Positions 26,183 to 44,157 of a stretch of DNA of 55,735 nt are shown here, piece after piece. The stretch is from contig JAHFLD010000003.1 of the NCBI GenBank assembly GCA_023245035.1, positions 1 through 55,735 on the forward strand. Direction: 5' to 3'. A program made the translations under genes and the position numbers. The notes under the pieces are model-generated. The model searched no databases and was not told the origin of the DNA. It saw only the letters and a list, made by a program, of their open reading frames with translations. This DNA is from Candidatus Harrisonbacteria bacterium (lineage in GTDB: Bacteria > Patescibacteriota > Minisyncoccia > UBA6257 > 1-14-0-10-40-38). How positions within the stretch are numbered: position 1 is the stretch's first letter; each line of letters opens with the position of its first letter.

Positions 26183-26219
26183 CATAAAAATCTCCGATGT
26201 TATATCGGAGATTTTTATG
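26183..26219. terminator. Bidirectional intrinsic terminator
   Basis: aaaaatctccgat-gtt-atatcggagattttt. Confidence 0.75.
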
Positions 26220-26223
26220 ATTA

Positions 26224-26241
26224 GTGCCCTCGAGAGGATTT
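26224..26241 (-). repeat. Duplicated tRNA-Leu 3' end (18 bp exact, gtgccctcgagaggattt)
   Basis: Identical to 26415..26432 in the tRNA-Leu 3' end, offset 191 bp. Confidence 0.85.
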
Positions 26242-26349
26242 TCACTACTCGTCCTTCGCTATACCTCGGACTGCGCTTTAAAAACCCTCGGTTTTTAATA
26301 TTTTCCGACACGGAAGGGACGTGGTTACTTCCCTTCCGATCCATCCCTC

Positions 26350-26363
26350 GTTCAAATCCTCTC
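26350..26363 (+). repeat. Inverted 14-bp copy of the tRNA-Leu T-arm
   Basis: gttcaaatcctctc is the exact reverse complement of 26423..26436. Confidence 0.8.
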
Positions 26364-26415
26364 AAAAACAAAGATTACAAAGAAACCGGATGATACCGGA
26401 GATTTTTTTTAATTG

Positions 26416-26497
26416 TGCCCTCGAGAGGATTTGAACCTCTAATCCTTTCGGAACGTGGTCCTAAGCCACGCGCGTATGCCAGTTCCGCCACGAGGGC
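26416..26497 (-). tRNA. tRNA-Leu(TAG)
   Basis: GCCCTCG/CGAGGGC acceptor, CGTGG-CTTAGGA-CCACG anticodon arm, long variable arm, GAGGTTCAAATCCTC T-arm. Confidence 0.93.
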
Positions 26498-26573: not shown

Positions 26574-27476
26574 TCATTTATTTTTTCCGTGGAATGCCTT
26601 GTGGATGTCTTTAAGTCCCTTGTTGGTTACGTGCGTATAGATTTGAGTGGTGCCGATGTTTCTGTGTCCGAGGAGCTCCTGTACGGAGCGCAAGTCGGCG
26701 CCGTTGATTAATAAGTCGGTGGCGAAGAGGTGTCTTAGTTGATGGGGAGTTACGTGCCTTGGGATTCCGCTTACTGTCGCGTAATGGCTAACCAGGCGTT
26801 CAACGGCGCGGGGTGTAATGCGCCCGATAACTTGAGGAATTTTGGATTTTTTGAGACTAATAAACAGGGCTTCTTCCACATCACCACGCAAGGCCTCGTA
26901 GTTTTTTAGAGCGTTGCGGGCGCTATCGGATAGGAAGACCAGGCGAATTTTTCCTCCCTTGCCGCGGACGCTGATCTCACCACGCTTGAAATCGAGATCG
27001 CGGTTGAGGCCGCAGAGTTCCGCGAGGCGGAGGCCGGTAGAAAAGAGCATTTCCAAAATGGCGCGATCGCGGGCGGCGCGCAGAGTGTTGCCGCGCGGGG
27101 CTTTGAGCAGGCGATCCAGATCGTGGTGTTCCATGATTTCAATTTGCCGCTGTTCAACCCTGGGAAGCTCTATCTTGTCCGGCGAAATTGCCGGGTATCC
27201 TTTTTTGATTAGGTATTTCAAAAAATTGCGGATGGCGATGACATAGTAGCTTTGAGTGTTTTTTTTAAGCTCAGCGCCATTTACGCGTTCGCGGGCGAGC
27301 GCGAGCCGAAAACGGCGAATGTTTTCTTCGGTTAGGTCTTTGATGGTGTTGATTTTTGTTTGGGCAATAAAGCGTTGCAGGTAGCGCTCGTAGTTGTCGC
27401 GAGTTTTAACCGAACGGTTTTTTTCGATCTCCAGATATTCGCAATATTCCTTGAGGGCTTTTTCGATCTCGTTCAT
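26574..27476 (-). CDS. Tyrosine recombinase XerC/XerD-like
   Basis: FSTGLRLAELCGL, HVTPHQLRHLFATDLL, LLGHRNIGTTQIYTHV (R-H-R-H-Y set). Confidence 0.92.
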   Translation of the reverse strand: MNEIEKALKEYCEYLEIEKNRSVKTRDNYERYLQRFIAQTKINTIKDLTEENIRRFRLALARERVNGAELKKNTQSYYVIAIRNFLKYLIKKGYPAISPDKIELPRVEQRQIEIMEHHDLDRLLKAPRGNTLRAARDRAILEMLFSTGLRLAELCGLNRDLDFKRGEISVRGKGGKIRLVFLSDSARNALKNYEALRGDVEEALFISLKKSKIPQVIGRITPRAVERLVSHYATVSGIPRHVTPHQLRHLFATDLLINGADLRSVQELLGHRNIGTTQIYTHVTNKGLKDIHKAFHGKNK

Positions 27477-42675: not shown

Positions 42676-42747
42676 ACGGGCTGTAGTATACCGGTAGTAC
42701 GTACGCTTCGGGTGCGTATAGACTGGGTTCGATTCCCAGCAGCCCGA
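42676..42747 (+). tRNA. tRNA-Pro(CGG)
   Basis: CGGGCTG/CAGCCCG acceptor, TACGC-TTCGGGT-GCGTA anticodon arm, TGGG-TTCGATT-CCCA T-arm. Confidence 0.9.
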
Positions 42748-42796
42748 CAAAAATAAAAATAGCTAGCTTGTCTAGTTGTTTTTATTTTTATGGATT
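42731..42796 (+). repeat. 66-bp direct repeat, copy 1 (tRNA-Pro 3' end plus downstream hairpin)
   Basis: Exact match to 42911..42976, offset 180 bp. Confidence 0.95.
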
Positions 42797-42801
42797 ATTT
42801 G

Positions 42802-42815
42802 GCTGGTAATCGAAC
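42802..42815 (-). repeat. Inverted copy (13/14) of the tRNA-Pro T-arm
   Basis: gctggtaatcgaac vs reverse complement of gttcgattcccagc (42727..42740). Confidence 0.75.
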
Positions 42816-42910
42816 GGGAAAGGGGTCGGGAAAACGGAAGTTTTACCGAGGCGGAAATATTAAAACCGCTGGGTTTTAAAACGGAGCGAGCGATAGCGAG
42901 TGAGTAGTGA

Positions 42911-42976
42911 GATTCCCAGCAGCCCGACAAAAATAAAAATAGCTAGCTTGTCTAGTTGTTTTTATTTTTATGGATT
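42911..42976 (+). repeat. 66-bp direct repeat, copy 2
   Basis: Exact match to 42731..42796. Confidence 0.95.
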
Positions 42977-43017: not shown

Positions 43018-43047
43018 TTGACGATTTTTTGTTCAGCGTGTTATTTT
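43018..43047 (+). promoter_or_regulatory. Putative promoter of structured RNA
   Basis: TTGACG-N18-TATTTT. Confidence 0.4.
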
Positions 43048-43053
43048 ATGAGT

Positions 43054-43373
43054 AGCTCTTATTTTTACGCGGGGCGCCGTGGCGGGTGGAGCCGAACCCG
43101 TCTATATCATTTGTTTTAACACGGCAGATGATATCTGCTTTCGGGTATCGCTAACGTATTCAACCTCCGAAGTGCGGTTCGGGGTTGAGAAAAATCCGTG
43201 GCGTGTGCCATGCGCGGGTTTTTGGTCCGGAGACCAAATGCCACTCCCAGGGTGTTTAGGTCTGATCTACAGTTGGTGAATCCGTTAGTAGAGGAGTGCC
43301 GGTTCGGGGCGACTTTGCTCCGGCGTTCCGCCTTTTCTTTTTCGCCCCGACCTAAAGTTGGGGCGATTTTTTT
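43054..43373 (+). ncRNA. Candidate structured non-coding RNA or leader of unknown class
   Basis: Promoter-like motif upstream, multiple hairpins (TTTGGTC-CGGA-GACCAAA, GCAGAT-GAT-ATCTGC, GGAGTGCCGG...CCGGCGTTCC), ends in intrinsic terminator, no convincing ORF. Confidence 0.45.
43341..43373 (+). terminator. Intrinsic terminator
   Basis: tcgccccgac-ctaaag-ttggggcgattttttt. Confidence 0.85.
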
Positions 43374-43401
43374 GCTAATTACTTACCGCTATACTTTATT
43401 T

Positions 43402-44157
43402 ATGCCGAATAATTCAACGTCTTGGGGCAAGGTTGCCGCCTGGTATGACGATCTATTGGATGGTGATGATACCTATCAAAAGAAGGTTATTTTGCCGAAC
43501 CTAAAGCGATTGGCAGGTATTCAAAAAGGTGATCAAGTGCTGGATCTTGGTTGCGGTCAGGGATTTTTCGCGCGGGAGTTTGCGAAGGCGGGGGGGCGGG
43601 TTACGGGCGTTGACCTGGCTTCTGATCTAATTGATTTGGCGAAAAAAAATTCCGGAGCGGCGATTGAGTATCGGGTGGCTCCGGCAGACCAGTTGAACTT
43701 TTTAAAAAACGGAGGCGCGGATAAGATTTTTATTATTCTGGCTTTGCAAAACATGGAGAACGCGGGGGCGGTCATCAAAGAATGCCGACGGGTGATTAAG
43801 CCGTCCGGTAAAATTCATTTAGTTTTGAATCATCCAGCTTTTCGGATTCCCAAGGCGAGCGGCTGGGGCTGGGACGAGCGGCGGGGGATTCAATACCGGC
43901 GAATAGATGGATACTTGAGCGAGTCTAAAGAAAAAATCCAGATGCATCCAGGAAATGCCCCAAAGGATCATACTTTTTCTTTTCATCGCCCGTTGCAGTT
44001 TTATGCCAAAGTTTTGGGTAATAATGGTTTTGCCGTCACGCGACTTGAAGAATGGGAGTCGCATCGCAGGAGTCAGCCGGGGGCGCGAGCGGCGAGTGAA
44101 AATCGGGCGCGGCGCGAAATACCGCTTTTCCTGTATATTGAAGCGGTGGCGCTATAA
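43402..44157 (+). CDS. Class I SAM-dependent methyltransferase
   Basis: VLDLGCGQGFFAREFAKAGGRVTGVDLASDLI; ATG at 43402. Confidence 0.88.
   Translation: MPNNSTSWGKVAAWYDDLLDGDDTYQKKVILPNLKRLAGIQKGDQVLDLGCGQGFFAREFAKAGGRVTGVDLASDLIDLAKKNSGAAIEYRVAPADQLNFLKNGGADKIFIILALQNMENAGAVIKECRRVIKPSGKIHLVLNHPAFRIPKASGWGWDERRGIQYRRIDGYLSESKEKIQMHPGNAPKDHTFSFHRPLQFYAKVLGNNGFAVTRLEEWESHRRSQPGARAASENRARREIPLFLYIEAVAL

Follow-up and report, generated by a model that had tools for sequence, protein, structure and literature searches.

A stably folded, terminator-bounded orphan RNA candidate behind tRNA-Pro(CGG) in a Candidatus Harrisonbacteria genome

The candidate RNA described here is encoded in an intergenic region of Candidatus Harrisonbacteria, in a window of 55,735 nucleotides (the whole stretch of DNA that was analysed). 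It lies on the plus strand between the gene for tRNA-Pro(CGG) (42677-42748, +) and the gene for a class I SAM-dependent methyltransferase of the Methyltransf_11 family (43402-44157, +), both of which are context and stand outside the RNA. The upstream boundary is a promoter-like site, TTGACG-N18-TATTTT, at 43018-43047 (+), in which a TG located one base 5′ of the -10 hexamer gives an extended -10 element (TGtTATTTT). This motif, proposed in an initial sequence-only reading of the locus, is indeed present; however, sites of this type occur once where 1.2 ± 1.2 are expected in shuffled DNA, so that the motif by itself proves nothing, and it is its position that lends it credibility. The downstream boundary is a strong intrinsic terminator at 43342-43373 (+), TCGCCCCGAC-CTAAA-GTTGGGGCGA followed by T7, which forms a 10-bp stem (43342-43366) with a 5-nt loop at -18.4 kcal/mol, as the same reading had recognized. 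With the ends adjusted to these motifs, transcription would be expected to start at about 43053, from a sigma-70-type site, and to end at about 43373, yielding an RNA of about 320 nt. The one open reading frame wholly within the region (GTG start, 66 aa) has no Pfam match and no coding signal, in keeping with the earlier view that no plausible ORF is present. The candidate sequence occurs in a single copy in its own genome.

The core of the RNA (43069-43331, +; 263 nt, 105 pairs) is predicted to adopt one well-defined and unusually stable fold. Its folding energy of -125 kcal/mol corresponds to a z-score of about -6 against dinucleotide shuffles, and the longer segment 43050-43375 reaches a minimum free energy of -145 kcal/mol at z -6.2 to -6.5. 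The positional entropy of the core is 0.26, against 1.02 ± 0.33 in shuffled sequences; 68% of its positions are paired with a probability above 0.9, against 20%; and its ensemble diversity is 15, compared with 64. In none of these three measures does any of 300 shuffles reach the native value. The dense series of stable hairpins noticed at first sight is confirmed.

In the predicted structure (all coordinates on the plus strand), a GC-rich closing helix of 11 bp (43069-43079/43321-43331) has a pair probability of 1.0 and is followed by a second helix, CCGAACC/GGTTCGG (43092-43098/43301-43307, within 43092-43307; mean pair probability 0.98), which leads into an inner junction. An 11-bp hairpin (43105-43133; mean pair probability 0.96) would branch off at this first junction, and a rod of helices (43134-43292, paired as 43134-43158/43268-43292; helix probabilities 0.80-1.0) would continue up to a four-way junction. 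Three further hairpins are predicted to radiate from the latter, at 43160-43188 (6+5 bp), 43190-43223 (11+4 bp) and 43224-43267 (4+5+7 bp). Pairing extends to about 80% of the bases in the core, and the loops between are short.

Folding reaches z -6.2 on the plus strand but only z -3.6 on the minus strand, and the core contains 19 G-U pairs out of 105, which can form in the plus-strand RNA only; both observations favour the plus-strand RNA as the folding molecule. In a window-wide fold scan, which was coarse (1110 segments, only 12 shuffles per segment), the plus-strand segment at 43101 ranked fourth of 1110. The top-ranked segment (35.6 kb) holds a plain strong terminator hairpin, and the other two higher-ranked segments come from opposite strands of a single site at 26.0 kb that contains paired repeats and a terminator.

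A comparison with the 4227 families of Rfam gave no match that reached a gathering score, either in the region or in the window, and a permissive-filter search of the region at E 10 returned only sub-threshold matches to terminator tails, the best of which was to suhB (26.7 bits against a threshold of 41), the terminator tail of an unrelated small RNA. The statement that the sequence lacks the hallmarks of RNase P RNA, tmRNA, SRP RNA and 6S RNA is thus borne out by covariance models, and the Rfam scan places the candidate in no known family. A whole-genome model search located the genuine tmRNA on another contig (G000 C3:57884-58214), and the candidate RNA shows no match to the tRNA-like domain or the tag reading frame of tmRNA; an identity as tmRNA is therefore rejected. 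We take the outline of the candidate, with its closing helix, early hairpin, rod and four-way junction, to recall loosely that of a bacterial type A RNase P RNA. There is, however, no sequence or covariance-model match to this family (RF00010), the P4 motif is absent by inspection, and this identity is likewise rejected. A candidate RNase P RNA is encoded on another contig (G000 C4:190559-190976), with a score of 99 bits against a cut-off of 100. Neither the tmRNA nor the RNase P sequence resembles the candidate RNA more than shuffled sequences do.

The candidate RNA has no detectable relatives in the genomes searched. Searches with blastn in 150 relatives and 244 genomes of the order returned short chance matches only, as did searches of phage and plasmid records. 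A single-sequence covariance model incorporating the fold recovered only the candidate itself from 243 genomes, and nothing convincing from the fetched loci; a distant homologue could escape it, as the model is a weak one and a pre-filter was applied to the genomes. With about 240 genomes of the order yielding no homologue, there are no compensatory base changes to observe, no covariation and no sign of purifying selection. Thus, what had been put forward as a novel structured RNA holds as a real, stable fold that is bounded by a terminator and lies outside Rfam, but not as a conserved one; a lack of conservation among relatives was one of the outcomes that the initial reading had named as refuting it.

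The synteny of the locus is more informative. The order CCA-adding enzyme, tRNA-Pro(CGG) is kept in two genomes, G001 and G002, that belong to the same family, and the RNA is absent from both: in G001, a partial tRNA repeat, a small ORF and the methyltransferase gene come after tRNA-Pro(CGG), and in G002 an unrelated gene does. In two further genomes, G134 and G023, tRNA-Pro(CGG) is located immediately 5′ of the methyltransferase gene, again with no RNA in the slot. The slot behind tRNA-Pro(CGG) is therefore variable between relatives, and the RNA is best regarded as a recent, lineage-specific occupant of it. Homologues of the methyltransferase were found in 36 of the 150 relatives and on 22 public contigs and, among the matches listed, their upstream regions differ from the candidate.

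It is conceivable, if rather unlikely, that the candidate was left behind, or carried in, by a mobile or recombined segment inserted behind tRNA-Pro, and that its fold is a side effect of inverted repeats. The differing contents of the slot in relatives fit this explanation, as do a perfect 66-nt repeat of the tRNA-Pro 3′-end and a dispersed element flanked by T-arm sequences directly upstream of the RNA. However, the candidate is not repeated in the genome and bears no similarity to the adjoining T-arm-flanked element, its phage and plasmid matches are no better than chance, and the strand asymmetry together with the G-U pairs favours folding as RNA. It is far less probable still that the candidate is a housekeeping RNA that has diverged past recognition, such as an SRP RNA (RF00169, RF01854) or a 6S RNA (RF00013). 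Neither of these was detected in the whole host genome, which has 716 kb and is 99.4% complete, although a missing Rfam match is not proof that SRP RNA is absent. The hallmark of SRP RNA is helix 8 of the S-domain with its GNRA-type tetraloop and internal loops, and inspection of the candidate found no GNRA-type S-domain motif in any loop; nor did the SRP or 6S models match the candidate at the lenient setting of E 10 and permissive filters. 6S RNA is a rod with a single central promoter-like bubble, whereas the candidate fold has two branched junctions. Furthermore, the genome encodes tmRNA and RNase P RNA at other sites, and a housekeeping RNA would be expected in sister genera, in which the structure model finds none. 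With the motifs of both RNAs missing and no homologue in sister genera, we do not regard the candidate as SRP or 6S RNA.

The proximity of the terminator to the methyltransferase gene, 28 nt upstream of its ATG, had also raised the possibility of an attenuating, riboswitch-like leader, in which the segment 43303-43312 (TTCGGGGCGA) would pair with the 5′ arm of the terminator (43342-43351) and prevent termination once the rod opens. As in known attenuating leaders, a structured RNA and a terminator stand close upstream of a gene and an antiterminator can be drawn: the pairing comprises 9 unbroken bp with a duplex energy of -21.9 kcal/mol, and it appears in the lowest-energy structure predicted for a chain that stops at 43353, before the 3′ arm of the terminator emerges. 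This antiterminator is nevertheless marginal, because 2.2% of shuffled upstream sequences pair equally well (p 0.022), and the antiterminated full-length fold is 10 kcal/mol worse. The closing helix consists of 11 GC-rich pairs, and ligands usually control fewer than this. Unlike the genes behind such leaders, the methyltransferase gene has a likely -10 box of its own, TATACT (43391-43396, +), which ends 6 nt before the ATG, and it lacks a Shine-Dalgarno sequence; in relatives, its homologues occur with other upstream sequences that do not match the structure model, without the candidate attached. A -10-like hexamer is located 5-13 nt before the start codon in 9 of 36 genes of the window (the analyst's own selection of ORFs), where positions farther upstream would predict 1.7, which suggests that the window encodes many near-leaderless mRNAs; other genes of the window carry Shine-Dalgarno sequences. 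Because the methyltransferase gene combines its own -10 box with the absence of a Shine-Dalgarno sequence, it is most likely transcribed from a near-leaderless promoter past the terminator. The leader is therefore retained as a weak, minor and improbable alternative.

The explanation that we prefer, with a probability of roughly 0.55, is that the locus contains a stand-alone, lineage-specific noncoding RNA gene, which lies beside tRNA-Pro, is separate from the methyltransferase gene and probably encodes a protein-binding RNA. A fold beyond that of all shuffles, the strand bias, the terminator and a credibly placed promoter-like site speak for such a gene, whereas the lack of a homologue wherever one was searched for and the chance-level frequency of the promoter motif speak against it. 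The candidate shares with bacterial stand-alone structured noncoding RNA genes a promoter-like site, an intrinsic terminator, a stable closing helix, a well-defined fold and the absence of an ORF; unlike the known members of this group, it has neither an Rfam family nor known relatives. The transcript would form a closed rod that carries one hairpin at the inner junction and three arms at the four-way junction, and may act as a rigid, folded molecule that binds protein; an RNA with a core paired to about 80% and with short loops is likelier to be of this kind than an antisense regulator. It would have been gained, or have arisen, recently in this genus in the variable slot behind tRNA-Pro(CGG), and would be transcribed separately from the methyltransferase mRNA.

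The fold is thus real and unusual; the locus is very likely an RNA gene, and the RNA, although an orphan, is probably real. It is a well-founded candidate, short of a class. We regard it as doubtful that it represents a new class of large structured RNA, which would serve a dedicated function in the cell, be confined to a single lineage of ultra-small Patescibacteria and be defined by the rod and the three-armed four-way junction. Few noncoding RNAs are retained in genomes this small. To our knowledge, small RNAs are almost unstudied in Patescibacteria, and a literature search on noncoding RNAs of the CPR found nothing on point. If real, a strongly folded, separately terminated RNA of 320 nt with no counterpart in sister genera would be a rare case, in Patescibacteria, of an RNA gene specific to one lineage.

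The variable slot also holds a separate and more widespread element, a repeat whose conserved core spans about 110-140 nt. It has conserved hairpins, and its sequence is no more similar to the candidate RNA than shuffles are. Here, it is associated with a perfect 66-nt direct repeat (42731-42796 and 42911-42976) that comprises the 3′ half of the T-arm and the acceptor end of tRNA-Pro together with the terminator of the tRNA, and the 114 nt between these two copies of the tRNA 3′-end belong to a dispersed family. The window contains copies at 42800-42927 (+) and 26200-26420 (-). In this genome, the element follows at least six tRNA genes, those for tRNA-Met, tRNA-Arg(gcg), tRNA-Gly(tcc), tRNA-Gln(ctg), tRNA-Leu(tag) and tRNA-Pro(cgg), and one copy follows a protein gene; it is also located behind tRNA genes in three other genomes of the order. 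Each copy starts with the T-arm of its host tRNA in reverse complement and ends with the T-arm and acceptor end repeated in direct orientation. Between them, the core consists, in order, of AAGGGGTCGG, a GGGAAAC..GTTTCCC hairpin, GGCGGAAATATT, an AAAACC..GGTTTT hairpin and GTGAGATTC; it is conserved, also in the three other genomes, with compensatory changes in the first hairpin. A search of viral contigs with one strict pattern of the element gave no match. A tyrosine recombinase gene (Phage_integrase; 26574-27476, -) adjoins the tRNA-Leu gene that bears one of the copies. From its sequence organization, the element looks like a tiny mobile or recombination element that targets tRNA genes. 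Upstream of the methyltransferase gene in G134 (L041), a tRNA-Pro gene appears to be interrupted: its 5′ part (TCGGTCTGTCGTATAGCGGTAG) and its 3′ part (GGTCTGGGTTCAATTCCCAGCAGACCGACA) flank a complete second tRNA-Pro gene.
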